A DNA stretch of 64,000 nucleotides. It comes from a virus. Shown in pieces: positions 6,137 to 63,763 of this stretch (positions within the stretch are counted from its first letter, which is position 1; each line of letters opens with the position of its first letter). The DNA is taken from positions 1 to 64,000 of the IMG/VR virus record IMGVR_UViG_3300025276_000030; one strand, 5' to 3'. A model generated the notes under the pieces. The model was not told where the DNA came from. It made no database searches and saw only the letters and a list, made by a program, of their open reading frames with translations. The position numbers and the translations under genes were made by a program.

Positions 6137-6436
6137 CTAAACTTCTTCTACCGCTACAGGCTCTTCATCAGTTTCTACTGCTGATTCTGGTGCTGGAATG
6201 AATTCTCCTTCTTTAAGGTCAATAGAACCAATTCCGTATTTCTCTTCTAATTCCTTAACCATATCAGTTTCAGATTGTCTGAGTTCTCCTAGGAAGGTTT
6301 CTGCTGAAGCCTTTCTTTCTACTAGTTGGATCTCGTTTAAAGAGATAGAACCTAATTCTTGGACCAGTGCAGCATTCTTCTGCTGTAGTTCCTGTAACTT
6401 GTCAAGCTCTTCTTGAGCTAACTTTTGATTTGCCAT
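6137..6436 (-). CDS. Coiled-coil protein of unknown function
   Basis: This 99-residue acidic protein is almost entirely heptad-like (residues 5-65, rich in Leu, Glu, Gln and Lys). A conserved-looking EEKYGIGSIDLKEGEF segment follows, then an acidic tail. Small coiled-coil proteins with a KYG-G-I motif are common in myovirus structural modules, but I cannot assign a function. It lies just upstream of the sheath gene, with its own TATTTATA motif 43 bases upstream and a hairpin terminator downstream. A tail assembly or structural role is the natural guess. Confidence 0.7.
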   Translation of the reverse strand: MANQKLAQEELDKLQELQQKNAALVQELGSISLNEIQLVERKASAETFLGELRQSETDMVKELEEKYGIGSIDLKEGEFIPAPESAVETDEEPVAVEEV

Positions 6437-39619: not shown

Positions 39620-39918
39620 TACTTCTCTTCTATAGTTTCGTTAGCGATTTCTATTTTAATTATATTCGGATACTTACTGACTGCATTCTCTTTAAATGCT
39701 TCAAAAGCCTCTTCTTTATCTTTTTGAGTTATTAACTTAACTTTAAAAGTCATACTACCCATTTCCGATGATGAACCAGCATTAGTAACAGCGGTAATCC
39801 CCGGTAAAGCACGTAATAGCTCAGCTATGTTCTCGCTTTCGTCATCTTTGTACATTAACCTAATCATACCTTCATAGGTACTAAATACTATCTGCTCTAT
39901 TATTGTCATTAATTTCAT
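39619..39918 (-). CDS. Small neck-module protein of unknown function
   Basis: This 99-residue protein begins MKLMTIIEQIVFSTYEGMIR. The pattern of alternating helix and strand (LRALPGITAVTN, then MTFKVKLITQKD, then IIKIEIAN) suggests a small ferredoxin-like alpha/beta fold. It is coupled by TAATG on both sides to the gp13-like and gp14-like genes, so it probably acts in head-tail joining. No named family is recognised. Confidence 0.6.
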   Translation of the reverse strand: MKLMTIIEQIVFSTYEGMIRLMYKDDESENIAELLRALPGITAVTNAGSSSEMGSMTFKVKLITQKDKEEAFEAFKENAVSKYPNIIKIEIANETIEEK

Positions 39919-44699: not shown

Positions 44700-45038
44700 T
44701 TAGTTGTCTTTGTCTAATTCAGGATGAAATTTAATATATACCTCTTTTCCATCCTCTTTTATAGACTCTCCGTCAACTTCTATTTCTGCTGGGAATATTT
44801 TAATATCTTCTCCGTACCAGTAGTTTATCTTATACCCTCCTGATGAGGTTAATTCAATTATTAAACCTCTTTTGTAGTCATTTTCTTCTGCTTGTAGAAT
44901 AATTTTCTCACCTCTTGGTAAGATCATTGCTGCTTGTTCTACTTTTCCGCCTCCTGATTCATGACCATCTTCGTTTAATTTGCTGGAAGTTGTTAGTTGA
45001 TTCTCTATTAAGAATTTCTTTATGTTAAAAGTAGACAT
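44700..45038 (-). CDS. Small head-module protein, N-terminal targeting-like peptide
   Basis: This 112-residue protein begins MSTFNIKKFLIENQLTTSS. The rest is beta-rich (EKIILQAEENDYKRGLIIEL, NYWYGEDIKIFPAEI). The FLIE and later SKLNE segments resemble prohead protease sites (L/I-x-E), so it may be packaged in the head and processed. It follows the 185-residue gene by 12 bases and ends just before a terminator. No named family is recognised. Confidence 0.55.
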   Translation of the reverse strand: MSTFNIKKFLIENQLTTSSKLNEDGHESGGGKVEQAAMILPRGEKIILQAEENDYKRGLIIELTSSGGYKINYWYGEDIKIFPAEIEVDGESIKEDGKEVYIKFHPELDKDN

Positions 45039-45050
45039 ATTAGTTAGTGT

Positions 45051-45608
45051 TTATGATATTAAATCTTCTACAGCATCTTTTATAAGGGAGCTGATTTCTT
45101 TTCCTTTAATTAACGCTTTACCGCTATATGCTGCTGCTGTTGCCCATTTAGTCTGTCTTAATAAGCTTACCGCTTCTCCTCCTGCTTGTCCTGCCATACC
45201 AAAGATTACTATAGCATATAAAATCTTGGCTATACCCTGTTTTTTCTTTTCATCTTTAGTGAATATACCAACTATACGTTTAATAGGTGCCATAAATGCA
45301 GCTTCATTCTTATGAGTAAAATTAAACCACCAATCAGCGGAATTCATCATCCCGGGTTTGTTGTATTTTTTAGCTAACCACTTAAACATCTTAGATAGCA
45401 TGTTTGCTACAGTATTAGATAGCAATATATACCCTAGAATCCCAATTATAGCTGATTCATTAACATCTTTTGCTGGAGTTACTAAAGCATCTTTGTTATC
45501 TTCTAATTCCTTCTCGATTGATTGAGCTAATTTAGAAGCCATTGCATCCATTCCGGGTTCAACGGTGTACTCCTCTTCTTTTTCAAATAAAATACTGTAT
45601 AGTTTCAT
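45051..45608 (-). CDS. Head-module membrane-like protein
   Basis: This 185-residue protein starts MKLYSILFEKEEEYTVEPGM. Two hydrophobic segments, IIGILGYILLSNTVANML (about 53-70) and ILYAIVIFGMAGQAGG (about 129-144), could be membrane-spanning. Basic residues lie between them. The N-terminal ILFE resembles a prohead protease site. Membrane-active proteins packaged in heads are known in large phages, but this is a guess here. It is coupled by TAATG to the protease gene. Confidence 0.55.
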   Translation of the reverse strand: MKLYSILFEKEEEYTVEPGMDAMASKLAQSIEKELEDNKDALVTPAKDVNESAIIGILGYILLSNTVANMLSKMFKWLAKKYNKPGMMNSADWWFNFTHKNEAAFMAPIKRIVGIFTKDEKKKQGIAKILYAIVIFGMAGQAGGEAVSLLRQTKWATAAAYSGKALIKGKEISSLIKDAVEDLIS

Positions 45609-46186
45609 TAAGCTCTTAGTATATCGTTAATAATAGTATCTAGACCATTATACTTACTTACTTTCTGGGTTCCTTCTTGTAATGTGATTGGATTCATATA
45701 AGCTCCATGAGTAGACGGGTTAGAAACAAAATCCCAACATACTAATTCGAAATCAGGCTGTACTTCCAGTGTACCTTCGTTTGTCTGATTGACAGATCCA
45801 GTACCTCTAGATGATATTCCTATTGTATGTCCTGCTTTAATTATCTCTTTAACGATATTACCTGCAGGAGTATTTAGTAGCTCTACGCGTCCCATAAGGT
45901 CGTTTCCTTTCCACCATAACTCTTTTACTATGTGAGAGGCGTTCTTTAAGGAGACAATTGGAGACTCAGGGTGATCCAGTTCTCCGAATGCATTACCGTT
46001 CTGTACAAACTCTTCTATGTACTTCTTAGATTCTCTCTCTAATATCTCCTTACTATAGGTACGTCCGTTTTGGTTTTTAGCTACTGCTCTTTGCATAACA
46101 CCTTCTACTTCATATACTCCGGGTCTATCTTTAGATTCCTTAAGTAATGATTTAAACGGAGTTACCTGTATTAGTAATTGTGCCAT
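45608..46186 (-). CDS. 21: Prohead core protease (gp21-like)
   Basis: This 192-residue protein is a serine protease of the herpesvirus-assemblin-like prohead group. The conserved GELDHP gives His72, and GISSRG gives Ser125/Ser126 as nucleophile candidates. NRTYSKEIL-like sequence near residue 41 (NGRTYSKEILE) and ELVCWDFVSNPS near 148 complete the family pattern. Its job is to cut scaffold, capsid N-terminus and internal proteins, usually after L/I/A-x-E. T4 gp21 is 212 residues. It sits between the 738-residue protein and the 185-residue gene, in the expected order before gp22 and gp23. Confidence 0.93.
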   Translation of the reverse strand: MAQLLIQVTPFKSLLKESKDRPGVYEVEGVMQRAVAKNQNGRTYSKEILERESKKYIEEFVQNGNAFGELDHPESPIVSLKNASHIVKELWWKGNDLMGRVELLNTPAGNIVKEIIKAGHTIGISSRGTGSVNQTNEGTLEVQPDFELVCWDFVSNPSTHGAYMNPITLQEGTQKVSKYNGLDTIINDILRA

Positions 46187-46188
46187 AA

Positions 46189-48405
46189 TTATCTTTTCTT
46201 TTTAGTCTCCCTTAATGTACCGTTGAATGGAGCTGAGTATACTGTTTGCTTAGCTTCTTCTTCTGCAATGTCAGGTGTTCCCATATTAGGCCTGTCTATT
46301 TCTGCTCTAGAGATAGTCTTTACTTTAGGTAATTCTACTTTCTTTATAAAGCCTCCTTTAAGTACTGGTCTAAGATCTTGTTTAAAAGCTGATTCTAACG
46401 ATGGTGCAATAAATGCTCCTATATTAAGTCCTTCTTCATTTTTAAAATCAGCAGTTTTACTAAATGTATCTGCTATTTTGTCTCCAATCTTATCGTAGAA
46501 TTGCTCTATTTCTGTAACAATGTTCTCTAGTGAATTAACAACTGGTTTAACGCCTGGGAATGTTTCATAACTTGAACCCCAGTCTGCTAATTTGTTTGTT
46601 GCTGCTTCATTTATTGTTCCTTCTTCTAGTACTTTAGCAATAATTGATTTTAAGTTCTCTTTAACTAATTGCTCATCTTTGTTCAATGCTTTCTTAATAG
46701 CTTTATCTTTACCAGCCATATAATCATCTGCGTCTACATCTCCGTCTCCGTCATGATCTTTTCCTTTCTCTTCTTCTAAGTTCTCAACTATAAATTGAGT
46801 TTCTAAGTAACTAAGTAAGTCTTTTTTAGCATGTTCTATCATTCCAGGTTCTGTCATAGGACCCATCTTCCATTCTTCCCAAGCTTCAATTAAAAAATTA
46901 ACACCTTTATCTAACTTAGGTCCCATACTTTCAACATATCCACCAGTTTCGTAGTCATTTTCTGTTACGACTTTTCCACCTGTAGCCTTCTTTCTTCTTC
47001 CTTCTGCTAGTTTTCCGTATGTTTTAGATCTTTTACCTTCGTTTTGCTTTCTGGAAGGATCTACTCCTTCGTTAAAGCCTAGTAAAGTTTGCTTAATAGC
47101 TTTTCTAAAGTTTCTTAAGTGGTCTAATGCTTCTACCTTGTCCTTTTCTTCTATAGATTCAATAGCATACGACAAGTGGCTTGCTTCTGAGTGGTAGTTA
47201 ACATCTGTAAAGGAGTCAAATATATCTATAAGGGTATCAATAGGAGTGTTTAACCTAACCTTTAATCCTGCTTCCAACATACCTTCATAATCGAAGTCTG
47301 ATGAGAACATTTGTCCTGGTTTGTAAGGTTTAACTATATTATCTTTTTGACCGTACTTCTCGATATCTTTCATATCTTGATCAGTCATTGCTTCGTCTAC
47401 ATCTTCTTCATCAATCTCTATCTCTTGCATGTTGTCAATACTGTCTCTATTGATAGTATCGTACTCATTGTAGTTGCTCCAAATATCTTCTATATCTTGA
47501 ACATCTATATCTCCTGAGAATATATCATCTTTGTGTGTTCTGATAAATTCTAATGCTTGATCTGTATTAACTTTAAATCCTTTTTCATCTCCTACAATGG
47601 TTAATGCATCAATAACTTTTCTCATAGCCATTTTTCTATTTGCATTAGACATCACAACGTTATACATCTTACCGTCTTCTCCTCTTTCCATTCTACCTGG
47701 GGATGTTGGTATTGGTTCTGCTTCTGACATTTCTCCTCCTAAGTAAGCGTTTGATATATCTCTATAATCAACTTCTTCTTCTTGTCCGTCTTTGTCAACT
47801 GCAAAAACAATATCGTCATGCCACATAGCAGCATTGTCGTCGTTATTGGAGTTTGGATTATATATTATTAATTCTCTTCCGTCTACTAGTTGAATGAAAG
47901 CATCATCGGCACTTCCTAAAGCTTTTATTAAAGTGTCTTTAGTGTAGTTCTCTTTTAACTCTACTTTTTTCATTCCGTTTTCTTTATCTACTTCTTTTCC
48001 TTTTGCATACTCAACTGGTTTGTCATGCTTATCTACCTTAGTAGACTCACCTGCCATTATATTAAGGTAGTGTAAAGGATCTTTGATTAGATTAGCTAAT
48101 GCTTTATCTTTAGCTTTAGCTTGATCTTCTACTGATACAGAGTCTTGAGACATTCTTCCCATTTCTTCTATTTCAATATCAGCTCCTCGCCGTATTGCTT
48201 CATCTGATAAGTTATGATGCTTCAAAGCTTTGTCTTCTGCTTTTTCAGAAATCAGTCCCTTATTTTTGAGAATTGATACAGTATCTTCAAATCCATTGAA
48301 TTGAGATAGTAAATTTGGCATAGCCATGCGAGCATCTCTTACGAATTGCGTTTTGTTAAACGTTTCGTTTAGTACTCCTCTATATTTTTCAGTTAACGTT
48401 TTCAT
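46189..48405 (-). CDS. Large head-associated protein with EF-hand-like loop
   Basis: This 738-residue protein is acidic and helical. It starts MKTLTEKYRGVLNETFNKTQ. Residues 550-561 read DHDGDGDVDADD, followed by a YMAGKDKAI helix, which matches an EF-hand/dockerin-type calcium loop seen in related capsid-module proteins of marine T4-type phages. VLNE near the start could be a prohead protease site. It precedes the protease gene by 2 bases and overlaps the 73-residue gene by 17 bases. It is probably a packaged internal or core protein. The function is unknown. Confidence 0.6.
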   Translation of the reverse strand: MKTLTEKYRGVLNETFNKTQFVRDARMAMPNLLSQFNGFEDTVSILKNKGLISEKAEDKALKHHNLSDEAIRRGADIEIEEMGRMSQDSVSVEDQAKAKDKALANLIKDPLHYLNIMAGESTKVDKHDKPVEYAKGKEVDKENGMKKVELKENYTKDTLIKALGSADDAFIQLVDGRELIIYNPNSNNDDNAAMWHDDIVFAVDKDGQEEEVDYRDISNAYLGGEMSEAEPIPTSPGRMERGEDGKMYNVVMSNANRKMAMRKVIDALTIVGDEKGFKVNTDQALEFIRTHKDDIFSGDIDVQDIEDIWSNYNEYDTINRDSIDNMQEIEIDEEDVDEAMTDQDMKDIEKYGQKDNIVKPYKPGQMFSSDFDYEGMLEAGLKVRLNTPIDTLIDIFDSFTDVNYHSEASHLSYAIESIEEKDKVEALDHLRNFRKAIKQTLLGFNEGVDPSRKQNEGKRSKTYGKLAEGRRKKATGGKVVTENDYETGGYVESMGPKLDKGVNFLIEAWEEWKMGPMTEPGMIEHAKKDLLSYLETQFIVENLEEEKGKDHDGDGDVDADDYMAGKDKAIKKALNKDEQLVKENLKSIIAKVLEEGTINEAATNKLADWGSSYETFPGVKPVVNSLENIVTEIEQFYDKIGDKIADTFSKTADFKNEEGLNIGAFIAPSLESAFKQDLRPVLKGGFIKKVELPKVKTISRAEIDRPNMGTPDIAEEEAKQTVYSAPFNGTLRETKKKR

Positions 48406-48610
48406 CTAAGTAATCAAACATTTTAGTGTTATACGGTCGTTTTAAATTTTTCACTTGTTTAAAACCTAATTTTTCTGCTTGCTTTGTTGCTCTGTTCTTC
48501 TTATTACCTTTGCTAAAAGCATTAGGTGTTTGGAAAGCTCCAATTGCGCCAGTTGAATTAAGTTCTTCAATAACCTCTCTTACTGCTTTAATTAATTTAC
48601 TCTTTTTCAT
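48389..48610 (-). CDS. Small portal-downstream protein
   Basis: This 73-residue basic protein begins MKKSKLIKAVREVIEELNST. It contains TGAIGAFQTPNAFSKGNKKN, and then LGFKQV. Short proteins with an A-x-TP-x-AF-x-KG/GK pattern near the portal are common in T4-type marine phages. ATGA overlap with the 284-residue gene and a 17-base overlap with the next indicate coupled translation. VIEE in the N-terminal helix may be a processing site. The function is unknown. Confidence 0.6.
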   Translation of the reverse strand: MKKSKLIKAVREVIEELNSTGAIGAFQTPNAFSKGNKKNRATKQAEKLGFKQVKNLKRPYNTKMFDYLDENVN

Positions 48611-49461
48611 AGTTTACGCATTTCGTTAACTAAGTCATAGTACTGCATTAAATTAATAAGGTGATTGTCATTTATCTTTTCAGTTTTCTTAAGAGTTTTA
48701 ACACCCTTTAGTACTTCCTGTAATTTTATTTTTACTACTTCATCTTTGACCTTTTCTGATAGTCCTTGGACTTCTTTTCTGATCTTTGCTACTTCTTCGT
48801 TTACTAGGTTTCGTAGTCTAGTTGTTGAATCAACAGAAGTAATGAATTCTTTAAGTATATTTTTTTGCTCCGGTAAAAGAGTTTTATAGCTAGAATTAAA
48901 TTTCTCTAGTAAAATCTTATAAGTAAGCAAACGTAAATCTTTGTCGTATTTAGCGTACTCTTCTATTAAGGTATCTTTTACTGAGTCTTTATCTACTTTA
49001 GAAGAAGTTAAGTGCTCTAGTACAGTTAATTTATTATTAACTAAAAAATTTGGATCTACTAAAGTATCATTATTCTGAGCTTCTAATAAGCAGTACAGTG
49101 CAGCTAGTGGAGTATAGTCCCTTACTTGAATTGCAAAGAAATCTTCTATGTTATAGTGTTTCTTAATTTCTGATATAAGTCTATACTTCTGATCTTTTAA
49201 CGTTTGTTGGCTTAACTTCCTAGAAATTTCAGTTATAGTTGAAATAACAGTTTCCGCTCTTGCTTCACTTAAGCTATTGTTTTTAAGAATATACTCATAG
49301 AGTTTAAGCTCTTTTGCTAAAGCAGTGTGACCGCTAAAGTACTTCTTTAATATACTTACTGCAGCTGATTCATTCCTTGAGAGTGTATCGGCAGCAATCT
49401 GTTTAACTAGCAGTTCGTAGATTAAACCAGTATTTTTAAATTTCGAATGTTTTATCTTCAT
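48607..49461 (-). CDS. Helical head-module protein, unknown function
   Basis: This 284-residue protein, predicted almost all alpha-helical, begins MKIKHSKFKNTGLIYELLVK and has heptad-like stretches in the C-terminal 100 residues (RKEVQGLSEKVKDEV). It lies 29 bases downstream of the portal gene with its own TATTTATA motif (17 bases upstream of the ATG), and heads the unit that includes the protease. A chaperone or core role in capsid assembly is possible. No family is recognised. Confidence 0.6.
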   Translation of the reverse strand: MKIKHSKFKNTGLIYELLVKQIAADTLSRNESAAVSILKKYFSGHTALAKELKLYEYILKNNSLSEARAETVISTITEISRKLSQQTLKDQKYRLISEIKKHYNIEDFFAIQVRDYTPLAALYCLLEAQNNDTLVDPNFLVNNKLTVLEHLTSSKVDKDSVKDTLIEEYAKYDKDLRLLTYKILLEKFNSSYKTLLPEQKNILKEFITSVDSTTRLRNLVNEEVAKIRKEVQGLSEKVKDEVVKIKLQEVLKGVKTLKKTEKINDNHLINLMQYYDLVNEMRKL

Positions 49462-49478
49462 AATATACGGTTACTATA

Positions 49479-49486
49479 TATAAATA
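49479..49486 (-). promoter_or_regulatory. Late-promoter-like octamer TATTTATA
   Basis: Exact copy (CATATTTATATA), 17 bases upstream of the 284-residue gene, just after the portal stop. Confidence 0.6.
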
Positions 49487-49490
49487 TGGG

Positions 49491-51386
49491 TTAGTCTTCT
49501 AAATCTTTAAGTTGTGACTCATCTAATAGTTTAGATTCACGTTCTTTTTTGTTCTCAAAGACCATTTCCTTCTTCTCATTAAAGGAATCCTTAATTTGAT
49601 GGTATATAGTTTGTGCTTTTGTTGTGTTAGTATCTTCTGTACTTTCCGAGACATTTTCATTGTCTGAGTCAAATCCTCCATGCATGCCGTGTACACCTAA
49701 TCTATCTCTTCCTCCTATAGGATCTGCATTGGTACCGTATACTGATGCTTTCTCTTTAGGTCTTCCGCCTTTGGCTGCTTTCTCATCATACCCTGGAGGT
49801 ACATTACCTGAACCTTTCTCTGTAGCAGTAGCTCTTCTACCGTACATAGACGCTAAATCATGAGGAGTACCGTAAGATCTACCGGATGATGCAGGATCGT
49901 TTCCTTCAGCCTCTACTTGTGCTATTCTAAAGGTTCTCTTAGCATCTTCTCTAACTAAGTCTCTCATCTCATTATACTTATCTTCTGATAAATTAAAGAT
50001 ATGGTCGTATATATAGTCAGTTGAGAACATTTTAGAGTCTTTCATCTGACCTGCTAAGTCAATTTTTTCTTTTAGTAATGCTACTTTTTCTTGTTCGTAT
50101 ATTACTGATGGGTTAGTTAACTTAATTTCGAAGTTAGTTAAGCTTTCTCCTGTGAAGCCTTGAGTATATAAATGTACTAAAGCTATCTTTGTTAATTCCG
50201 ATTCTACTATCTTCTGTATTCTTTCTACTGTTCTTGCGAATCTAATATCTTCTGCCGCTAAAGTAGCTTTACCACTAAGATCCCCTTCATAGCCGAAGTA
50301 TGCTTTAGGTATCTTTAAAGCAGCAAATAACTTAGCCTGTAGGTATTGTATATCGTTAGTACCATCGTATTCCAGACCTTTAGTTGTCTCTATTCTTGTT
50401 GATGCATCTCCACCTCTAACAGGAACATAGAAATCTTCCATCATGTTCTGCATATTAAACTTCAAATTGTATTGCCCAGTTTTGGAGTCTACAAATGGAG
50501 TCTTCTTCATAGTGTTGATAGTCTTTTGCATGAACTGATCTACCTCTGCTGGAGGTATAGAACCTACATTTACAAAGAAAGTTCTCTTTTCAGGTGCTCT
50601 CATGATACGGTGTATAAGCATCGCATCTTCCATTAGAGTTAACTGTTTGAATATTTTTCTAGCTGGTTCAATAAATGACCTTCCGTACGGTAGATAAGCA
50701 TGATCTGATATTAATCTAAAGTGTGCTACCTCGTAGTTGTCTAAAGCTATAATTTTACTATTTTGTGATGGTATGTAGTTAGGGTCTTGAGTTGATGCTA
50801 ATCCGTCAGGGTTGATAGTAAACTGTACTTCTGATGGTTTCTCTGGATCTACTCCTTCGTGTCGTGCCATATTGTATACCGTATAAGGTAGTACGTTGTA
50901 CACTCCGAACTTTTCTGCGATTTCTAATTTTAAGAAGTAATCTCCATGCTTACACATTCCTCTAACCCATGACCATAGGTTAAACTCTATATTAAGTACA
51001 TCGTAGAAGAGGTTATAAAGAACTCTTTGTAAGTTCTCATCTGAAGATTTAATTGCTAAAACTTCACCCATATCGTTTTTAAGTGTAGCTTCGTCTGCTA
51101 ATATGTCTAATGCTGATGCTATGATAGGATCGGTGTCCATTGCTTCATAATCGGAATATAGCTGTACTCTTAATGTTTGGTAATTTAATACGGGATTAAA
51201 TATATTCTTATTATTGTGAATATGTAATCTTGAAAATCTATCGATCAGAGAGTTGGTTTCAAAGTTACCTGTTGTCTGTATCTGATTTATATCAGCTACC
51301 TTAAGCTCTCTTCCTCCGATGTTTCTAATAATTACATCAGAAGAGAAAAGTCTCTGTAGTCTTGGAAATAGTGATTTATCTGCCAT
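49491..51386 (-). CDS. 20: Portal protein (gp20-like)
   Basis: This 631-residue protein (T4 gp20: 524) has portal landmarks: LYSDYEAMDTDPIIASALDI near residue 80, EVAHFRLISDHAYLPYGRSF near 219-238, RAPEKRTFFVNVGSIPPAEV near 265, FYVPVRGGDASTRIE near 318 and KLFAALKIPKAYFGYEG near 350. The C-terminal 110 residues are Gly-rich and acidic and extend beyond T4. The product forms the dodecameric ring through which DNA enters. It follows the terminase gene with a TATTTATA motif 28 bases upstream. Confidence 0.93.
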   Translation of the reverse strand: MADKSLFPRLQRLFSSDVIIRNIGGRELKVADINQIQTTGNFETNSLIDRFSRLHIHNNKNIFNPVLNYQTLRVQLYSDYEAMDTDPIIASALDILADEATLKNDMGEVLAIKSSDENLQRVLYNLFYDVLNIEFNLWSWVRGMCKHGDYFLKLEIAEKFGVYNVLPYTVYNMARHEGVDPEKPSEVQFTINPDGLASTQDPNYIPSQNSKIIALDNYEVAHFRLISDHAYLPYGRSFIEPARKIFKQLTLMEDAMLIHRIMRAPEKRTFFVNVGSIPPAEVDQFMQKTINTMKKTPFVDSKTGQYNLKFNMQNMMEDFYVPVRGGDASTRIETTKGLEYDGTNDIQYLQAKLFAALKIPKAYFGYEGDLSGKATLAAEDIRFARTVERIQKIVESELTKIALVHLYTQGFTGESLTNFEIKLTNPSVIYEQEKVALLKEKIDLAGQMKDSKMFSTDYIYDHIFNLSEDKYNEMRDLVREDAKRTFRIAQVEAEGNDPASSGRSYGTPHDLASMYGRRATATEKGSGNVPPGYDEKAAKGGRPKEKASVYGTNADPIGGRDRLGVHGMHGGFDSDNENVSESTEDTNTTKAQTIYHQIKDSFNEKKEMVFENKKERESKLLDESQLKDLED

Positions 51387-51414
51387 TCAATGAATATTTT
51401 AATTCAGTATATAT

Positions 51415-51422
51415 TATAAATA
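51415..51422 (-). promoter_or_regulatory. Late-promoter-like octamer TATTTATA
   Basis: Exact copy (GCTATTTATAAT), 28 bases upstream of the portal gene, between terminase and portal. Confidence 0.6.
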
Positions 51423-51428
51423 GCACCT

Positions 51429-53003: not shown

Positions 53004-53006
53004 AAC

Positions 53007-54245
53007 TTATTTATATTGCCTCACTCCATCTTTTTCTGATACAAGTGAGATACCTAGTGCTGTTGCCCAATCTGGATTAATATACCAGGGTGAGTCTACA
53101 TTTTCTCTTTTTATAAAGAGGCTTCCACCTCTTGCTTCATTTGATCCTCTAACATGAATATAAAGGTCTTCTAGTACCGTTAAAGCATTTGTGTCAAATG
53201 GAACTAATCCACTTACTAAAGTTGTAATTTCAGAAGGTACTGCTCCTTTAAAGAAACAGTTAGGAGTTAATTCACTATCAGCTCCAAATTTTCTAGCTGC
53301 TGTATAAGCTTCTAATGCTTCATCTTGGTTAAGCTGTAATGGACCACGTCCTTCTACAGTGTATGTACTAGAAGAGGTGCTAATAAAGAAAGCTAAATTT
53401 TTTGTAGTAGTTCCTTTTTTTAATAAAGTATTAGCTACTATACCGTTATATATCTTTATTACTTCTTCTTTAATTTTACCTTTTTCAAATATCTGTAAAA
53501 CTCTTTGAGGTCTTGTCCAATTTTCTACGAAAGTAGCATTACCTGCTTTTAAACTAATTCTTAACTTATTAGAATTAATAGGTTTAACTTCTTTATCTAA
53601 TATAACAAGTAAATCAGTTTTAGGTTTTCCTGGAGTTCTTCCTCTTGCTTCACCTATATACTGAACTTCAACATCTTTTCCGTCATGTTTAAAGTTATAG
53701 TTTTCATCTGAGGCATTGTGGAATAAAAGAGCTACGTCTTTTTCTTGTGGATGCCCAGGAATAAAGGGGTGTAATACTCCTGATTTATGTTTTTTAGCTT
53801 CTCCCGGTTCAAATGCGTCTACTCCTTTACCTGTAGGTTTATTAATAGATGTGATACTTAATAAGTATTCACTACCATCGTACTTAACAGTAGCTAACTT
53901 GCTTACTCCTTTTTGAATTAAATCCGCTACCTTCTTAGATATAATATTAAACTCTGTTCCTTTTTTAATACTAACTGGTTCTTCTTCATCAGATGTGGGT
54001 ATTAGTATAGTGTCCCTATCTGCAGTGTACATAAAGTTTTCGGAATCTTCTTTGTCTGTAACGTACTTTTCAAATGTTCCAGTAGTAGAGGGGTAGCCTG
54101 TAGCTTTACCTCCCATATTTGATTCACCTAATTTAAAGCCAAATATAGTTTCAAACAAAGACATATCGTCTTCATTATCGATATCAGGATATCCTTTTTC
54201 AGTCTTGTACGACCATTCTAATATAATCTTATCTAGTAAGTTCAT
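53007..54245 (-). CDS. Unknown head-module protein with possible PD-(D/E)XK-like core
   Basis: This 412-residue protein begins MNLLDKIILEWSYKTEKGYP; IILE looks like a prohead protease or targeting site. Residues 196-235 contain GEARGRTPGKPKTDLLVIL, then LRISLKAGN. The spacing of Glu199, Asp211 and Ser231-x-Lys233 on a strand-loop-strand resembles restriction-endonuclease-like folds in which the acidic member of ExK is replaced. It is co-transcribed with terminase. It could be a packaged nuclease, an inactive relative, or a structural protein. The function is unproven. Confidence 0.5.
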   Translation of the reverse strand: MNLLDKIILEWSYKTEKGYPDIDNEDDMSLFETIFGFKLGESNMGGKATGYPSTTGTFEKYVTDKEDSENFMYTADRDTILIPTSDEEEPVSIKKGTEFNIISKKVADLIQKGVSKLATVKYDGSEYLLSITSINKPTGKGVDAFEPGEAKKHKSGVLHPFIPGHPQEKDVALLFHNASDENYNFKHDGKDVEVQYIGEARGRTPGKPKTDLLVILDKEVKPINSNKLRISLKAGNATFVENWTRPQRVLQIFEKGKIKEEVIKIYNGIVANTLLKKGTTTKNLAFFISTSSSTYTVEGRGPLQLNQDEALEAYTAARKFGADSELTPNCFFKGAVPSEITTLVSGLVPFDTNALTVLEDLYIHVRGSNEARGGSLFIKRENVDSPWYINPDWATALGISLVSEKDGVRQYK

Positions 54246-54250
54246 TTTAT

Positions 54251-55897
54251 TTATGCTTCTGGATCTTCTGTTGGCTCTTCAAAGTCAACTGGTTCTCCTG
54301 TTAAGTCTGCTCCACCTCCATCATCTCCGTCACCGCCTAAATCAGCAGGTAAGTCTCCATCATCTCCTCCAGTTGCTCCTCCATCTTCTCCAGGAAAGTC
54401 TCCACCGCTTCCGGCGCTACTTCCAGAGTCAGTATCTACTTCTGCTGGTTCTTCTGTTGATTTAAATGGCCCTTCTTTGTAAAGAATAGATAGTTTATCT
54501 AATGCCTGTTGGTAGTCATTAATTTTATCTATGTAGTACCTTTTACCCATTATCTGAGCTTCAAATCCTGTTCCTGTCCACTTAAGTATGTAATCTTGTC
54601 CGTTAGCTAAGTTAACTCTGAAAGAAGTAGGTCTTGGTGATATCCAATCTATACTGTCAACAAATTCTTTAAAGTCTTCTGTTTGTAGTTTAATTAAAGT
54701 AGCTTTAAGTGTAGGAAATTTCTGTACCATTGTATCAGTAGCATCCTCTAAAACTGTATCTTTAGGTGCTTCTTCATCTCCCTCTTCTTCCGGAGTTGGT
54801 TCATCTGCTTCTTTTACTAAATCTATCTTATCAAAAACACCTTTTTTACCTTTTACAGTAAAGAAGTCTTGTTTATGACTATCCGTAAATTCAGATTCAA
54901 CTTCATGCTCTTCTCCTTTTCCGTTCTTATCTTTAAGTTTAACTAAATCTCCTACTGCTTCTTCCATTGAACGTCTCATTCTCATTAGTTCATACTGGTC
55001 AGGTCTTTCTGATCTAAGGTAAGTTTGTAGTTTTCTGAAGTTTGTTTTAATTAATTCAAATAAGTCTCTAGCTTTTTTATCTTTTCTAATATCTTCATTA
55101 CCCACAAGCTTCTTTATATCTTGAACGATATCTGAGAAGTTACTATACAGTCCCTCGAAAGAAGGAAGTGCAATTGGTCTGTGACCTACTTCTCCTGTAG
55201 TATCGTTTACGGATATAGTTTTAAAATAGGTAGACATAGTTGAAGATACGAAATCCTTATCTGGCCATTTAGAAATACCGTACCTGTCTTCAATACTTTT
55301 ACGTACTGTTGCTGGAAGCTCTTCTAGGCCTAAGGTCTTTACTTCGTTTATATTTATACCTCTTCTAATCTTTGATAATTTTACCAATGATTTTGTATCA
55401 GCTTTAGGACTCATATTCTTAATCCTCTCAATACTCTTTTCTTTATCTTCTATACGTCCTTCTACCATCTTAAAATGACTTGGTAGATTCTTTATAAAAA
55501 TTTCGATATCTTCTCTATTAAAAGCTTGCATTTGCTGATTCATTACGTTTAGGTAAACTCCTCTTCCTGCGCTTTCTTTTCCTGTGTAGGACCAATATCC
55601 TTTAGTAATAACTGTATCTTGGTATTTAATATTTTTATCCACTTCAAAGCTTGGATATTCTTCTTCTGATTCTCTTAGTGTATACATATTATCCTCATCA
55701 TCCCAATCTTCTTCATCGTCTTTAGAAACTTCATCATGTACATCTTGTACCATACTGTAGTCGTTCTGTCTACGTACTTCGTCCCAAGTCATATCAAATA
55801 ACTTTCGAGATGCTATTTCATATTCATCATCAGTATCAATTTCTTTTCCGGATATTTCAGCGTATGCTTCTAATATAAGTTTCTCTAATTTATGCAT
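54251..55897 (-). CDS. Large acidic head-module protein with LILE N-terminus
   Basis: This 548-residue protein starts MHKLEKLILEAYAEISGKEI; LILE|A fits the L-x-E cleavage rule of gp21-type proteases. The middle is helical (ELIKTNFRKLQTYLRSERPD). Around residues 430-490 lies a small beta domain (SFRVNLANGQDYILKWTGTG). The last 55 residues are Gly/Asp/Glu-rich low complexity. It lies between the 1045- and 412-residue genes with gaps of 1-5 bases. It may be an internal virion protein. No family is recognised. Confidence 0.55.
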   Translation of the reverse strand: MHKLEKLILEAYAEISGKEIDTDDEYEIASRKLFDMTWDEVRRQNDYSMVQDVHDEVSKDDEEDWDDEDNMYTLRESEEEYPSFEVDKNIKYQDTVITKGYWSYTGKESAGRGVYLNVMNQQMQAFNREDIEIFIKNLPSHFKMVEGRIEDKEKSIERIKNMSPKADTKSLVKLSKIRRGININEVKTLGLEELPATVRKSIEDRYGISKWPDKDFVSSTMSTYFKTISVNDTTGEVGHRPIALPSFEGLYSNFSDIVQDIKKLVGNEDIRKDKKARDLFELIKTNFRKLQTYLRSERPDQYELMRMRRSMEEAVGDLVKLKDKNGKGEEHEVESEFTDSHKQDFFTVKGKKGVFDKIDLVKEADEPTPEEEGDEEAPKDTVLEDATDTMVQKFPTLKATLIKLQTEDFKEFVDSIDWISPRPTSFRVNLANGQDYILKWTGTGFEAQIMGKRYYIDKINDYQQALDKLSILYKEGPFKSTEEPAEVDTDSGSSAGSGGDFPGEDGGATGGDDGDLPADLGGDGDDGGGADLTGEPVDFEEPTEDPEA

Positions 55898-55898
55898 A

Positions 55899-58800: not shown

Positions 58801-59036
58801 GCTTTTCTATCCATTTTTACAGCTTTAGTGTCTCCTGCTTTTGTAGTAATGAACATAGTTTCGCCTCCTTCTTCTATTAAGTGAAGTTTAGCTGTGAGAG
58901 ACTCCTTAATGGTATTTAATTGTTGAACTGATTTAGTCGCAAATTGCATATCTAATGCTGGTGCATTATTTCTGTTGATACTCTCTAAAGCTGTTTCAAC
59001 TTGTGATAGACGAGATTTTAATTCTTCGTACGTCAT
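55899..59036 (-). CDS. Large modular head-module protein with KOW-like and zinc-finger C-terminus
   Basis: In this 1045-residue acidic protein the N-terminal 50 residues are coiled coil (MTYEELKSRLSQVETALESI), then HLIEEGGE, another possible prohead protease site. The middle is a mosaic of small acidic domains. Residues about 964-1010 (VKVGDTLTLNGRRGKVTKYS) look like a KOW/SH3-like barrel. The final 30 residues hold CCGKCGRVHVKGNC then HC, a probable zinc-binding knuckle. It heads the packaging unit, with TATTTATA 28 bases upstream. It could be a packaged nucleic-acid-binding protein. The function is unknown. Confidence 0.55.
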   Translation of the reverse strand: MTYEELKSRLSQVETALESINRNNAPALDMQFATKSVQQLNTIKESLTAKLHLIEEGGETMFITTKAGDTKAVKMDRKAAMDLKKDPAITGIDTAKGSTIKEDDKDKGIEFTQLETKLLAKEVGRAVAKALKALGDEVGSMKAIRVEPNSFEVQVTYKGELRDDEFSFYVSNDELHLVDFSFDKVLVNVGTKPSGEPIINVDVLTNELQKHWKSLSEESNGGKNHYIKVKSHDYKKAMAILDQNVDPTYVKMDVVDDDGAGNTIIYFIFKHQTDFDDMYDDSDNKDSEFYQETEEDPEAFLYDVVMDLRANDIELADQSVEVDEAADNSDWAMKTRVINQHGRDMKKLDKIKKNTKPTRNPNWEKVSGNSPKVKAIIDKLEAKRDQVMRDMEQEAEPQGGPISDKYGDILNKIDNAIEKARKGKAVRYDDRQVDTSANENAIDPAEYGDIGKAYLAGFKKQHTLTLDQLEALGRKIVNQLYKGDFAAAKAKHLSEAGFTDDSLFTFGFDLDNIESAVNYLASRYKEGQDYELHIGRGDDLPNSVTLINPEMEADAELGDILDAAKGSDQTDYEDYRREENDYDNNELPEELDKGEVKKVKKIVGQLKNSVKGHGAQAKYLGKLVKESAARNLDEIFGALGYRQGFDEFIEDNPGCVEVIMEWIGSISDFQEKLGDEFSNDELENLGFYFGEDDDDYNESIKEGRGDLDAIVQIVTDMANEDGTTPKEAALEIIEALRDTYIIDAYDESVNENLNPEVSKKVAQFIKAMAKRYGYSEQDAVYSIMAALKQRKFDGIAENKIIKEFTDNAFEGADIIRMVAKNSPDMFGKQIFADLLPKGAASEDAAIKALHAHDKSDIKARMGQYAPMFVHVQYHKLKHEGEDYQMHQTQYYNNNFKDKDPSFNPKVTRITLFKDPEGEDINLGMVLVKTDEYVQDLRVLQGLGKRHMEEGSKVKYSKTKELTNEVKVGDTLTLNGRRGKVTKYSLTQATVDFGNGDVHGIAHSRIKDGKILKESKATCCGKCGRVHVKGNCKTPYLKGAKHCRTK

Positions 59037-59064
59037 TATAGTGTGTTTTATTAATGTATAGCTA

Positions 59065-59072
59065 TATAAATA
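59065..59072 (-). promoter_or_regulatory. Late-promoter-like octamer TATTTATA
   Basis: The coding strand reads CTATTTATTTATATAG, a double version of the motif, 28 bases upstream of the 1045-residue gene. It would drive the terminase unit. Confidence 0.6.
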
Positions 59073-59078
59073 AATAGA

Positions 59079-59708
59079 TTACTCTTCCCAAATAACATTT
59101 TTAAACTTCTCAGGGGATAGACCAAAGTAATTTGTTCTCCACTTTGTTTGTTCAAAAAAATCTAAATTCAACCAGTCTTTACGTTTATTCCAAAGTTTCG
59201 TAGCAACAGAATCCCAATCTTGGTTGATTACAAATGTTTCAATTTCTAACTTTTTACTTTCTATAAGATCAAAATCAAAGGAATCCCATTCATAATGAAA
59301 TACCTCAAATACACAATCTTCACTTACATAGTCAATGGATATATCTATACCCCATTTAGGTTTCATCTTAATTAACTTATAAAGCATTGGGTTATCCTCT
59401 TCTGCGATTGCTTTAAGTTGATCAAGTGCAGTAGAGTCAAAGCCTTTTCTTTCAAATAAGTCTGAATGATTAATATGAGCTCCTGTTCTTTTATCCCACA
59501 ATAACCAATCATACCTCAAACAATCTTCATCTCTACGTATAACAGGTTCGTACCCATTACAGGTTAAGAATGCTTGTTCTGCTTTAGTTAAATGATAACC
59601 GTTTTGATCAAACATGTCTACAGAGTGCTTGTCCTTAAGTATTTCTATATCATGAGTTGGATCTAGAAAGTAAGCGTTCCTGTTTAACTTGCTTTGGGCT
59701 ATTTTCAT
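59079..59708 (-). CDS. Protein of unknown function, 209 residues
   Basis: This 209-residue acidic, Trp-rich protein begins [20 protein letters not shown]. It is an alpha/beta mix with [20 protein letters not shown] in the C-terminal half. It overlaps the 68-residue gene by ATGA, so they are co-translated. No family is recognised. Confidence 0.6.
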
Positions 59709-59911
59709 TTACAGTGATAGTTTAAATAACGTTGTAGAGCTTTAGCATAGTGAGTACCTTTATCCTTTAATCCGGATTTAGCTGTCTTAACTATAGAGCA
59801 AGAAAGCTTACCTAATCTCTTTTTTAAGATACCTGGTTTCACTGGGTCATGTACTCCTTCGTACATTGCCTCCAATACAAGTTCTTTTATTTTAGATTTA
59901 GTATATGGCAT
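59705..59911 (-). CDS. Small basic protein
   Basis: This 68-residue basic protein reads [20 protein letters not shown], then Lys-rich helices ([20 protein letters not shown]). LVLE near residue 14 resembles the targeting-like sites of other head-module proteins. It is adjacent to the membrane-anchored gene (0-base gap) and overlaps the next gene by 4 bases. A nucleic-acid-binding role is possible from charge only. Confidence 0.55.
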
Positions 59912-60271
59912 TTATGCTGATTTTTGAAGTATTTCTGATAGTATCTTAATTACCACTCCAAAAAGAGTTGCAAAAATTATCCAGAGTGCCTTATTAACTC
60001 CGTCTCTCCATCTCTTAAGGTCTTTAACCTCAAGCATTTTATAAGTAAACTCTTTTTCTCCTAATTCCAGTTTATTTCTAAAGACTGTGTTCACATTAGT
60101 TTTAACGATTACCCCTGTTTCCGGGTTTAATAATGTATACTTTAAATCAGACATATTTTCTTTTAGAGCTTCTACATCTTTTTGCATAATCTTTAATTCC
60201 CCGTTGGGCATATGCTTTTTAATGTGGTGTAACTCAGATAAGACTGATTCTAATAGCTGCTTCTGTGTCAT
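59912..60271 (-). CDS. Coiled-coil protein with C-terminal membrane anchor (holin-like)
   Basis: This 119-residue protein is a helical/coiled coil at residues 1-60 (MTQKQLLESVLSELHHIKKH). A basic RWRDGVNK is followed by a single hydrophobic helix ALWIIFATLFGVVIKILSEI at about 94-113. This layout, a soluble coil and then a tail anchor, is like XhlA-type holin-associated proteins and some phage pore proteins. No endolysin or spanin gene is visible nearby, so a lysis role is only a possibility. A TATTTATA motif lies 28 bases upstream. Confidence 0.55.
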   Translation of the reverse strand: MTQKQLLESVLSELHHIKKHMPNGELKIMQKDVEALKENMSDLKYTLLNPETGVIVKTNVNTVFRNKLELGEKEFTYKMLEVKDLKRWRDGVNKALWIIFATLFGVVIKILSEILQKSA

Positions 60272-60299
60272 AATCGTATTTAAATTGTATATAGTTAAA

Positions 60300-60307
60300 T
60301 ATAAATA
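60300..60307 (-). promoter_or_regulatory. Late-promoter-like octamer TATTTATA
   Basis: Exact copy (ATATATTTATATT), 28 bases upstream of the 119-residue holin-like gene. Confidence 0.6.
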
Positions 60308-60314
60308 TATACCT

Positions 60315-60887
60315 TTACAGCTTACTCTTTAGATAAGTAATATATTCCTCAAATTTTTCAGTCATTTTCTTCTTTTCTTTTGTCTTATCTACTGTCCAAG
60401 CTTCTATATCTCCTTGTTCCGTAACAAAAGTTTCTTCTGAGTCCATTACATCTGCAAATTGTTGTTCTAGTTCCTTTATCCATAGGGTCAGGTTACCTTT
60501 TCGTGCATGTAGTAAGTACTCTTCATATACTCCGGTTCTTCTCATTTCTGCTTCCCATTCTATAAAGCAATTAAAACACATCTTATTAATCTTATAAATC
60601 TGCTTACTTAGGAAATAAGACATTGTGCCACTACATTTTGGACAATTAAGAGGTATCTGTACTGCTTTTTTTGCAGCATCTAATTTAGTTATGTTTTGCT
60701 TTAACCCATCTTTTACTGTCCACTTCTTACCGCCTTCTTCCCACACCTCTCCTTCAGAGTGTTTTTCATCTATACGGGTATATCCTGATTGAGCTTTAGT
60801 TTTAGAAGTATAGTCTTTTCTAACTAAATTTCTAATTCTCTCTACATCTGAATGTTTAAATTCTTTTTTTAGTTTACTATCCTTCAT
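60315..60887 (-). CDS. Zinc-ribbon protein of unknown function
   Basis: This 190-residue protein has, around residues 81-107, CPKCSGTMSYFLSKQI then MCFNC, a zinc ribbon with two C-x2-C pairs. The N-terminal part has VRKDYTSKTKAQSGY and GEVWEEGGKKWTVKDG. Similar proteins with this layout occur in T4-type marine phages but lack an assigned role as far as I know. It overlaps the HAD nucleotidase gene by 11 bases. It could bind nucleic acid or a protein partner. Confidence 0.6.
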   Translation of the reverse strand: MKDSKLKKEFKHSDVERIRNLVRKDYTSKTKAQSGYTRIDEKHSEGEVWEEGGKKWTVKDGLKQNITKLDAAKKAVQIPLNCPKCSGTMSYFLSKQIYKINKMCFNCFIEWEAEMRRTGVYEEYLLHARKGNLTLWIKELEQQFADVMDSEETFVTEQGDIEAWTVDKTKEKKKMTEKFEEYITYLKSKL

Positions 60888-61470
60888 AACCTAACTCTTT
60901 TAATCCGTTTAAAGCTTCAGTGATATCTCCATCTTTTACTCTAAATGCGATACCTCCAGCAGCTCTCCATTGTTCTATATTAGATGGTTTATCATCAATT
61001 AAAATACTATTTTCGTTAGCATAACTCTGTTTATTAGCTGAGTATGCAAATATAACTCTAGGTTTAGGTTCTAGGTGATTCTTTACCCAAAGTTGTTTTC
61101 CTAATCTAGAACTATTATCCCTTGATGGTGATGTAAGTAGTTCAGGATTGTATCCTTTTATAAATGCCCATAGCCTTTGACCATTCGGCATCCAGTTCAT
61201 TCCTGCCCAAAAACCTACTCCTACTGTCTGGTCTATAAATTTCCAAAACTCTTTCATTCCAAATATACGTTCAAAGTCTTTTGGTTTCTCTACTTTAGAA
61301 ATATCCCTCATTGGGTAAAAGTCTTTACCTACAGTATTTAGTTTTTCATGAAATCTACTTTCAAAGTCTGTTAAGACTCCGTCCATATCACAGTAAAGTT
61401 TATACGGTGGTCTACTTTCTTGTTCTGGAAGCGGGTATGCTTCTAATAAGTCTACTATACTATTACTCAT
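60877..61470 (-). CDS. HAD-type 5'-nucleotidase
   Basis: This 197-residue protein has the HAD nucleophile motif YCDMDGVLTDF (Asp28, Asp30), motif II in LLTSPSRDN (Thr113), a likely catalytic Lys around residue 125-130 (KQLWVK) and the acid pair in ILIDDKPSNI (Asp159, Asp160). The order and size match 5'(3')-deoxyribonucleotidases of the NT5C type, which dephosphorylate nucleoside monophosphates. It may adjust nucleotide pools or clear a specific nucleotide during infection. A TATAAATA octamer in the canonical T4 late-promoter orientation lies 16 bases upstream. Confidence 0.85.
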   Translation of the reverse strand: MSNSIVDLLEAYPLPEQESRPPYKLYCDMDGVLTDFESRFHEKLNTVGKDFYPMRDISKVEKPKDFERIFGMKEFWKFIDQTVGVGFWAGMNWMPNGQRLWAFIKGYNPELLTSPSRDNSSRLGKQLWVKNHLEPKPRVIFAYSANKQSYANENSILIDDKPSNIEQWRAAGGIAFRVKDGDITEALNGLKELGYEG

Positions 61471-61486
61471 AACCTTTATTTTTATT

Positions 61487-61494
61487 TATTTATA
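61487..61494 (-). promoter_or_regulatory. TATAAATA octamer in canonical T4 late orientation
   Basis: The coding strand reads TATATAAATAAATAAAAA, 16 bases upstream of the HAD nucleotidase. It is the only upstream octamer here that reads TATAAATA on the coding strand, and could be a true late promoter or a chance match in an AT-rich spacer. Confidence 0.4.
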
Positions 61495-61513
61495 TACCTT
61501 AATATACGAAAAA

Positions 61514-61528
61514 TACCTCAGTGAGGCA
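61514..61528 (-). terminator. Short hairpin terminator after the three-domain enzyme gene
   Basis: The coding strand has TGCCTC, a 3-base loop and GAGGTA (4 GC-rich pairs plus a G-U and an A-T), followed by TTTTTCG. It lies 22 bases after the stop codon at 61551. Confidence 0.5.
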
Positions 61529-61550
61529 AGCTTTTCAAGGGTTATTTTTA

Positions 61551-62828
61551 TTATTTCTTAGTCTTATGTAATGCTTTTCCTGCCTTCTTAGCCGCCTTAA
61601 ATGCTTTAGAGTTACCGTGAGATGCTTTCTCACCTCGTTTTTTCTTAGCATTTATATTAGCCCATAGTCCAGGTTTTTTAGCTTCATCGGTTGGGTTCTT
61701 AATAGAGTCTTCCCAATTTCTGAATGTTATATTACCAATTGTGTAAGCTTCTTTTTCTATTTCTAGTAGTGAATCGTCTTCGTTAGTATTCTGAGTGTTT
61801 ATATTAGTTAACCTTCCTTCTAAGTTCTGAGTGTGGTGAACCATTTCATGAGAAAAAGATCTCACTATATCTTTCATATGTCTACCGGAAGTAAATAATA
61901 CGATTTCTTTTGCATTAGGGTCATAATGAGCTGTGCTACCGAAGAAGTTTGATGCATTTAATTCATCTTTTCTTACTGTAACTTCAGGAAGTGGCATTAT
62001 ATTCATACCGTTATCCACCATGTACTCTACTAATGATCCTATAAAGTCTTTTAGCTCTAACTCATTTTTTGGTTTATTATCATGACCACATTTATGACAG
62101 ATGTATAAGTCATCTCCTCCATCCTCTATGTCCCAATTCCAATCGCAATTGTCACATTCAATTTTATCACCTACAATAGCTTCATTTACAAAGTAATTGT
62201 CAATAAATCCTTCAAGGTTATTTGCTAATATCTCTGACACTATCTTATCTTTAAGGTCTGTTAATATGTTAATAATTTCTTCACTAGATAACTGTTCAGG
62301 AAAGAAATCTGCTACTTTATCTAAATTACCTGATAGTATGGTATTTCTAAAATCTGTAGCTCTAATACCTGATCCAGGTGCTGCTGCATAAGCTAATCCT
62401 TTTACGTTAGGAGCATTTTTAAATGTTGTTACTCTTCTTAAATCAACGAAGTCTTTATCTCCTCTTATTCCTGTAACTGATACAAATTCTTGATCTGGGT
62501 TTGCTTGAGCGTGATCTTTTGCTGCAAACATTGGATTTGCTCCTCCATCTCTTATTTCTACATTGCCTAGGTACTTAGAGTATAAGTCCCATATAGCCAT
62601 TGACTCTGCTTTTGTTATACCGTTTCTCTCACCGGCTCCAACAAACACTATAACTTTCTCTATTTTAGGTTTAGTCCCTTGTGTACCTTTAAGTAGTTCC
62701 GCTCCTGTTTCTTTATAGTTATCCTTATCGTAGATTGCTCCGCTATAAGAATTATCTAATAGAGATTTAACTACATTAAAATGACCTCTATGAGGTGGTT
62801 TATATGCTCCAGGGTATAGTGCTATCAT
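61551..62828 (-). CDS. Nucleotidyltransferase / zinc-ribbon / HExxH metallopeptidase-like fusion
   Basis: This 425-residue protein appears to have three domains. Residues 1-180 are a cytidylyltransferase/NMNAT-like fold: YPGAYKPPHRGH has H13-x-x-H16 (HxGH class), with GSGIRATDFR near residue 152 as the second nucleotide site. Residues 225-247 have CDNC and CHKC, a zinc ribbon. Residues 320-370 hold SFSHEMVHHTQN (HExxH at 327-331) and, 30 residues on, EIEKEAY, a likely third metal ligand as in gluzincins. The tail has KKPGLWANINAKKKRGEK, a basic motif known from cyanophage proteins. It overlaps the kinase gene by ATGA. Confidence 0.7.
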   Translation of the reverse strand: MIALYPGAYKPPHRGHFNVVKSLLDNSYSGAIYDKDNYKETGAELLKGTQGTKPKIEKVIVFVGAGERNGITKAESMAIWDLYSKYLGNVEIRDGGANPMFAAKDHAQANPDQEFVSVTGIRGDKDFVDLRRVTTFKNAPNVKGLAYAAAPGSGIRATDFRNTILSGNLDKVADFFPEQLSSEEIINILTDLKDKIVSEILANNLEGFIDNYFVNEAIVGDKIECDNCDWNWDIEDGGDDLYICHKCGHDNKPKNELELKDFIGSLVEYMVDNGMNIMPLPEVTVRKDELNASNFFGSTAHYDPNAKEIVLFTSGRHMKDIVRSFSHEMVHHTQNLEGRLTNINTQNTNEDDSLLEIEKEAYTIGNITFRNWEDSIKNPTDEAKKPGLWANINAKKKRGEKASHGNSKAFKAAKKAGKALHKTKK

Positions 62829-63763
62829 GCTAAAAATGCTTGTAATTTAGAATCTATCTCCTGTGGAGTAGAGTGTTGTAGTTTGTCTTGAAAAAGAGGG
62901 CTATATAACATATCGGCAATATTATCTAATACCTCAGTATCTTTAAGGTTATTCTTTTCTTTACTAGCTCTGTACTTAAGTACTGCTGCTTTAAGTTTAT
63001 CCTGTCCTGGACCTACTCCATTCTTTCTAAAGAACTTCAAAAATTCATTCTTGATTGCTTTATCTTCTGAGCGATTACCTTTATCCCATTGTACGCTTCC
63101 TACATGAGTAGAAAACTCTTTTTCCTCTCCATCTTCCCATTCTATTGGCTTAAAGAAAGAAGATCCTCCAATACCGTTTTCCTGATTATACTTAGTAAGA
63201 TAGTCTTTTATCCCGCCAGTACCTTTTTCAGCAGCTATATTAAATGCTTGTATTGGTTTATCATACTTACCTCCAAAGTCATTAACGAATATGGACATCT
63301 TACCTTTTAACTTTTGATTAAACTCTCCTATTTTTTGGTATGCATTCCTCCAGGTGGAGAATACAGCAGTTCTAGGTACATTTCTTTCTCTTTCAAAGTT
63401 ACTAATATAGGATATCATTGGATGAGAGTAAACCATGACCATATAAATATCAAAATTCATTTCAATAAGGGAAGCTAAAGTTTTATCAAACCCCACTCCT
63501 GAAGCAGTTGTATCCCATACAAAGCTAGTTTTAGATTGAGCTGCTGCTTGTACGTCTTTTGTAGTCTGTTTAGCTGCTGCTCCTAGGTTATTGTGGTACG
63601 CATGCTCTGGGTCCTCAATATATTTATCTGGGTTGAATTGTTCAAGACTATCTAATGACAATTGACGTAAGAGGTAGGTCTTTCCTGATCCTGCTCCTCC
63701 GGCCATTATTACTGCTTTTGGTCGGTCTGATCGTTCGAGTATTAAGTCTGATAGTTTGATCAT
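62825..63763 (-). CDS. Zeta-toxin-like P-loop kinase
   Basis: This 312-residue protein has Walker A GGAGSGKT at residues 22-29 and SFVWDTTASG near 79-88 in the position of the substrate-aspartate region. Then RERNVPRTAVFSTWRNAYQK (125-145) holds the arginines and helix of zeta-toxin/chloramphenicol-kinase-like enzymes. The N-terminus MIKLSDLILERSDRPK is a short helix ending LILE. Phage kinases of this type phosphorylate small molecules or nucleotides; the substrate cannot be predicted. It is translationally coupled to the nucleotidyltransferase gene. Confidence 0.75.
   Translation of the reverse strand: MIKLSDLILERSDRPKAVIMAGGAGSGKTYLLRQLSLDSLEQFNPDKYIEDPEHAYHNNLGAAAKQTTKDVQAAAQSKTSFVWDTTASGVGFDKTLASLIEMNFDIYMVMVYSHPMISYISNFERERNVPRTAVFSTWRNAYQKIGEFNQKLKGKMSIFVNDFGGKYDKPIQAFNIAAEKGTGGIKDYLTKYNQENGIGGSSFFKPIEWEDGEEKEFSTHVGSVQWDKGNRSEDKAIKNEFLKFFRKNGVGPGQDKLKAAVLKYRASKEKNNLKDTEVLDNIADMLYSPLFQDKLQHSTPQEIDSKLQAFLA

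Follow-up and report, generated by a model that had tools for sequence, protein, structure and literature searches.

The window analysed here, a stretch of 64,000 nt from the 70,932-bp virus record IMGVR_UViG_3300025276_000030, represents the head region of a myovirus of the T4 superfamily whose relatives include Flavobacterium phage immuto. On the minus strand, genes for gp23, a gp22-like scaffold, a gp21-like prohead protease, gp20 and gp17 are followed by a run of accessory genes which extends to position 63763 and past it. The gp23 protein shares 72% identity with that of immuto over its full length; a megablast search of the region against phages returned zero matches. By our own reading, most genes up to 41.5 kb encode tail, fibre and glycosyltransferase-like proteins. 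The subject of this study is a set of proteins from the head side of the window which have unrelated bodies and share a short N-terminal peptide (hereafter, a tag) ending in hydrophobic residue-x-Glu (h-x-E).

Seven such proteins had been named in an original prediction, and all of them are open frames on the minus strand, placed and starting as described there (Table 1). Further tags were found on the 738-aa and 73-aa proteins, and two more tagged genes (MKLRDIILE, MKLSRVILGE) lie just past the window in the same record. The bodies behind the tags are indeed unrelated, as the prediction had claimed. Their Pfam families differ or are lacking, and only two of the seven proteins have credible matches, the kinase to Zeta_toxin (5.7e-10) and the nucleotidase to NT5C (1.3e-5). 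The idea of one shared 'LILE' peptide had to be replaced: there are at least three interchangeable tag classes, and L-x-E is also seen at domain borders and closes a leader of 41 residues.

Table 1. Tags and head-maturation features of the window; a slash marks a putative cleavage site.
Feature	Position	Strand	Gene	Remarks
Tag MIKLSDLILE/ of the 312-aa Zeta-toxin-like P-loop kinase	63734..63763	-	62825-63763	Exact T4 register
Tag MSNSIVDLLE/ of the 197-aa HAD 5'-nucleotidase-like protein	61441..61470	-	60877-61470	Orthologs tagged, fused behind L-x-E, or tagless
14-residue tag of the 68-aa protein (LVLE in the original prediction)	59870..59911	-	59705-59911	C-terminal domain also found behind other tags (immuto, locus L033)
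Tag MHKLEKLILE/ of the 548-aa protein	55868..55897	-	54251-55897	Exact T4 register; tag variants on related bodies
41-residue leader MNLLDKIILE/WSYKTEKGYPDIDNEDDMSLFETIFGFKLGE/ of the 412-aa protein	54123..54245	-	53007-54245	Two L-x-E sites
Class-C tag MKKSKLIKAVREVIEE of the 73-aa protein	48563..48610	-	48389-48610	Kept in relatives
Start MKTLTEKYRGVLNE/ of the 738-aa protein	48364..48405	-	46189-48405	Possible core protein
gp21-like prohead protease	45608..46186	-		Presumed cutting enzyme; PHROG 207 head maturation protease, E 1.9e-54
Tag MKLYSILFE/ of the 185-aa protein	45582..45608	-	45051-45608	Three tag classes among orthologs
Class-B tag MSTFNIKKFLIENQLTTSSKLNE of the 112-aa protein, N-terminus MSTFNIKKFLIE	44970..45038	-	44700-45038	Same tag on unrelated proteins of immuto and other loci
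RMQKLAGIIK, C-terminal motif of the gp22-like scaffold	43525..43554	-	43522-44517	
Predicted gp23 propeptide, residues 1-58, end QIVAE/	43322..43495	-	41915-43495	V/I/L-x-E at this place in gp23 relatives

Tags turned out to be enriched beside the head genes, with none on the tail side. The pattern M..h..hh.E (h-x-x-h-h-x-E, where h is hydrophobic) inside the first 17 residues was found in 12 of 30 genes on the head side and in none of the 27 on the tail side (Fisher P 1.5e-4). At internal positions of head proteins it occurs at a rate of 2.35% (binomial P 1.7e-12 for the 12/30 starts), and 2000 shufflings of residues 2-31 yielded a mean of 0.64 matches and a maximum of 5. The control genomes of lambda and T7 gave 1/70 and 0/56, respectively. 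The pattern was formulated after the tags had been seen, and two pattern-independent checks were added. The exact published T4 register (h4, h7, h8, E10) is present in three of 58 genes (the 312-, 412- and 548-aa proteins) versus an internal rate of 0.15% (P ~1e-4), and a pattern-free all-against-all comparison of N-terminal 15-mers returned 19 similar pairs, where internal 15-mers gave 6.7 +/- 2.6. The tag of the HAD nucleotidase (DLLE) fails the strict pattern; its orthologs have LADLLLE, LKQLLLTE and IKELIGE. Across 80 protease loci, the pattern matched 162 of 1070 starts (15% versus 2.6% internally), a count that takes in terminase starts, which require no packaging, and does not amount to 162 independent events, since the loci are related. 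In the uncultured loci, the first ATG was mechanically taken as the start of each gene. A 99-aa protein of the window (39619-39918, MKLMTIIEQ...) lacks a clear site; its orthologs begin MKLSDILLE, MKLLDIILE and MKLIPLILE.

The kinase gives the clearest picture of how a tag and its body are joined. Among 35 orthologs Glu10 is invariant, and Ile8 (97%), Lys3 (97%) and Leu4 (91%) are nearly so. The following residues 11-14 are hypervariable (23-57%) with an indel, against an average of 74% for the body. In the structure model (mean predicted local distance difference test score, pLDDT, 85), residues 1-10 are disordered, with an average pLDDT of 49, and the first strand starts from residue 16. We favour a cleavable targeting peptide because the invariant Glu10 is followed directly by a hypervariable linker and the fold begins only at about residue 15. 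The fold search listed generic P-loop kinases (PSTK, PezT/zeta, polynucleotide kinase) with low template modelling scores and gave no substrate call. Zeta/PezT toxins and polynucleotide kinases share the P-loop kinase fold of the 312-aa body, with the same low similarity scores, and, unlike it, they have no packaging tag. The same P-loop domain is found elsewhere behind other starts: MIPFILKE/GLYDPGIF in a kinase of Pelagibacter phage HTVC008M and MIKLFDILNE/GVYDPGIF in a viral contig.

These observations bear on the alternative that the N-terminal helices have some other shared role, such as translation start context or membrane or partner binding, with L-x-E being incidental. The pattern is permissive enough to be seen at terminase starts too, and the 185-aa protein has a hydrophobic middle part, as such a role might have it. 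An invariant Glu followed by a hypervariable residue, the exact T4 register and the retention of L-x-E at domain borders even where there is no free N-terminus all speak against it, and we consider it improbable.

Tags are exchanged between bodies. We distinguished class A (MKLxxIILE), class B (ENSFNLRKFLSENKLTTNSRVLAE) and class C (MKKSxLxxIIRExL). Orthologs of the 185-aa protein, whose gene directly follows that of the protease, have three kinds of start. The pair from loci L010 and L012 has starts of different class up to the site (...EILKE/ in one, MKLAHIILE/ in the other), and over the 166 alignment columns that follow the site its identity is 84%. Similar exchange was seen for the 548-aa and 68-aa proteins. 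Class-B tags also occur inside proteins and, after ALQE, at the extreme C-terminus (L024, L028). A tag of at least three classes swapped between bodies is probably a portable packaging module. Runs of small differing proteins, each with an MK..LR.IIREE-type tag, flank the prohead protease of a 484-kb phage (L008, LR756508; 453-10832 and 35249-39157). Next to its conserved active-site region, that protease (4529-6253) has what looks like an intein inserted between GELDHP and SSVVNL.

The position of the tags at the very start of genes and the near identity of some classes in neighbouring genes would be expected if the shared starts were a DNA-level element or a recombination junction with no protein signal. 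We rejected this explanation as exceedingly improbable: tag codons differ within the window and vary synonymously among orthologs, and the upstream bases differ. Class-B tags at internal and C-terminal positions do not fit it either. Since the synonymous codons of the tags vary, selection acts at the level of the protein.

Two further families show how the sites relate to domains. Relatives of the HAD nucleotidase exist in three forms, namely tagged, as the last domain of long proteins, and without any tag. In the fused form, MLAE/, KLNE/ or ELNE/ stands 8 residues ahead of the catalytic CDMDG. For the HAD protein of immuto a cut is predicted directly after MKKVMGNLADLLLE. One ortholog (L235) has LLD in place of L-x-E, which by T4 rules would allow targeting and not cutting, since Asp10 in T4 prevents processing and leaves targeting intact. 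The HAD protein also has a weak polynucleotide-kinase family match. In the family of the 412-aa protein (47 non-redundant members), residues 1-39 are near invariant, with Leu9, Glu10 and Trp11 fully so, and the bodies diverge into five clusters. In 43 of the 48 sequences, which are related and not independent, the conserved stretch closes with a second L-x-E that occupies exactly residues 39-41. Structure prediction covered the 40-aa leader, modelled as two confident helices; that of the body was unusable. Most, but not all, relatives of the body have a D...[IVL]S.K-like motif, suggestive of a PD-(D/E)XK nuclease in many of them; a Pfam search of the 412-aa body gave zero matches.

The head genes themselves point to the enzyme that would do the cutting. 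In gp23 relatives of the same clade, V/I/L-x-E closes the propeptide region (as IVAE, IVSE, LVSE, LISE etc.), and T4 gp23 has FLTE at residues 62-65. Because gp23 propeptides of the clade end in this way, the specificity of the protease is expected to match the tags; judged from these conserved ends only, we infer it to be [LIV]-x-E. The C-terminal scaffold motif RMQKLAGIIK is kept across the loci compared and recurs near the start of an unrelated 154-aa immuto protein (MKKQILSEQFRRMQKLAGIITE; L002 11676-12140), so it is possibly a second kind of targeting motif.

The closest known system is the capsid-targeting sequence (CTS) of T4, which is found on IPI-IPIII and in the gp24 and Alt propeptides and is cleaved by gp21. 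Both it and the window tags comprise about 10 N-terminal residues with hydrophobic positions 4/7/8 and Glu10 at the known (T4) or presumed (window) cut, are common to unrelated bodies, and have a gp21-like protease gene nearby. In the T4 genes we read, IPII and IPIII begin MKTYQEFIAE and gp24 begins MAKINELLRE, in the same register as the window tags; IPI (MKTFKEFTSTTT) has the start in common and not the full pattern. Mutations in T4 IPIII place targeting mainly in residues 4 and 7, and processing in 8 and 10 (PMC9026906). MIKLSDLILE, MHKLEKLILE and MNLLDKIILE agree with this register at each position, and the remaining tags are shifted by one to several residues. The residues differ, however (K-L-x-x-I-I-L-E in the window versus M-K-T-Y/F-x-E-F in T4), and peptides so short do not tell descent from convergence. 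Unlike the T4 CTS, the window has at least three tag classes, putative cargo from enzyme families, and L-x-E between domains and after a 41-aa leader. In the giant phages phiKZ and SPN3US, head propeptides are likewise removed after Glu by a gp21-related protease, at multiple sites each, but these are mostly longer than 100 residues and are not short portable tags (PMC5694885).

A tagged enzyme is known from another phage. Mass spectrometry of cyanophage S-SM1 virions detected the putative cytidylyltransferase T4-GC190 (PMC3037559). This enzyme has an N-terminal tag in the same register (MKKFSAFLNE); relatives begin MKKFSAFLTE, MKKFSDFLTE and MKSFLNFLFE, and the version in Prochlorococcus phage P-HM2 has no N-terminal extension. 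We considered the 425-aa protein of the window (61551-62828) as a T4-GC190 homolog and rejected it: there was no significant BLASTP match, and only a short nucleotidyltransferase (GH) motif region aligns. This untagged protein combines a nucleotidyltransferase-like start, a zinc-ribbon-like segment and a metalloprotease-like HEMVHH stretch; in its 907-aa immuto relative, TLAE stands immediately ahead of the domain.

Taken together, the T4 register, the protease homolog, the h-x-E ends of gp23, the invariant Glu and the swapping of tags lend good sequence support to the T4-type targeting and cleavage signal that had been proposed, and the shared N-termini are very probably capsid-targeting propeptides of the T4 kind. 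The part of the proposal which has to be narrowed concerns cargo, as some of the tagged proteins are possibly scaffold. It may even be that all tags bring proteins to the prohead core as scaffold or core components that are then degraded or expelled, with no enzyme injected. T4 gp22, gp67 and gp68 are core proteins which get cut to pieces (PMC9026906), the scaffold and gp23 themselves bear tag-like or tag-related motifs, and the 738-aa and 548-aa proteins are large, acidic and without enzyme matches. Yet the kinase and the nucleotidase retain folded catalytic domains right after the site, and T4-GC190 was reported from mature virions. We therefore regard a role limited to the core as rather unlikely, while the 738-, 548- and 73-aa proteins may be core or scaffold components never reaching the next host. 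The enzymes are the best candidates for injection.

Several points weigh against packaging by these tags. The pattern also fits proteins that need no packaging, e.g. large-terminase starts (MPDLRTLIREEW), as well as S-SM1 gp5, probably by chance; because of such cases, a single match is weak evidence. The tag is lacking in several enzymes of the cluster, among them the 425-aa protein. At the replacement boundaries of all N-terminally replaced homolog pairs, L-x-E was only weakly enriched (163 versus 136 +/- 9.5) in a test diluted by untagged genes and fuzzy alignment starts. T4-GC190 is a single case, picked after the fact, and we found no proteomics of this phage or its close relatives, including an immuto virion proteome, in the open-access literature.

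If the tags do act as capsid-targeting propeptides, core binding, cleavage, packaging and injection could proceed in three steps. The tag would form a short amphipathic helix with hydrophobic residues near positions 4 and 7, by which it attaches to the prohead core during assembly (to the gp22-like scaffold and/or the protease). The gp21-like protease would then cut after the Glu of h-x-E, typically residue 9-14, as the conservation of the site suggests, and free the folded body in the head. Finally, some enzymes would remain in the head once it is filled with DNA and pass into the host together with that DNA, such as the Zeta-like kinase, the nucleotidase of the HAD type and perhaps the body of the 412-aa protein; tagged proteins of the core-like kind would mostly be degraded as scaffold. 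The virus thus probably ships ready-made enzymes inside its particle, and these could reach the bacterium together with the DNA. As the kinase resembles Zeta/PezT and polynucleotide kinases and the HAD protein weakly matches a polynucleotide-kinase family, a role in repairing nucleic-acid ends or in nucleotide metabolism on entry is conceivable, if speculative. Another possible cargo, a packaged mini-kinase, is the 142-aa MKLSRVILGE protein (L003 2958-3386; record G000 66457-66885), which has protein-kinase-like stretches (LGSGDYGSAYLLNGRVYKV; LDIRPSNVMVNQQNKLKLVDI) and gave zero matches in a Pfam search.

The CTS principle is already known: the internal proteins that T4 injects act against host defence, and the signal sequence has served to find such proteins in T-even phages (PMC12373910). 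In the open-access literature we came across no account of these tag classes, of how they are exchanged or of such enzymes carrying them in this lineage, which is not proof of absence. More tentatively, with the odds slightly against it, we suggest that in the immuto-related T4-superfamily lineage exchangeable, protease-removed tags (N-terminal, C-terminal and interdomain) load a rich and rapidly changing enzyme cargo (kinase, HAD nucleotidase, possibly nuclease-like) that is injected at time zero, in which case metagenomes would allow a direct reading of injected effectors. If the tag grammar holds across T4-superfamily phages, many uncharacterised head-adjacent genes could be predicted to encode virion cargo, and the mature N-terminus of each product would be predicted exactly. 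The tags would also suggest ready-made packaging signals for enzyme delivery into Bacteroidota.

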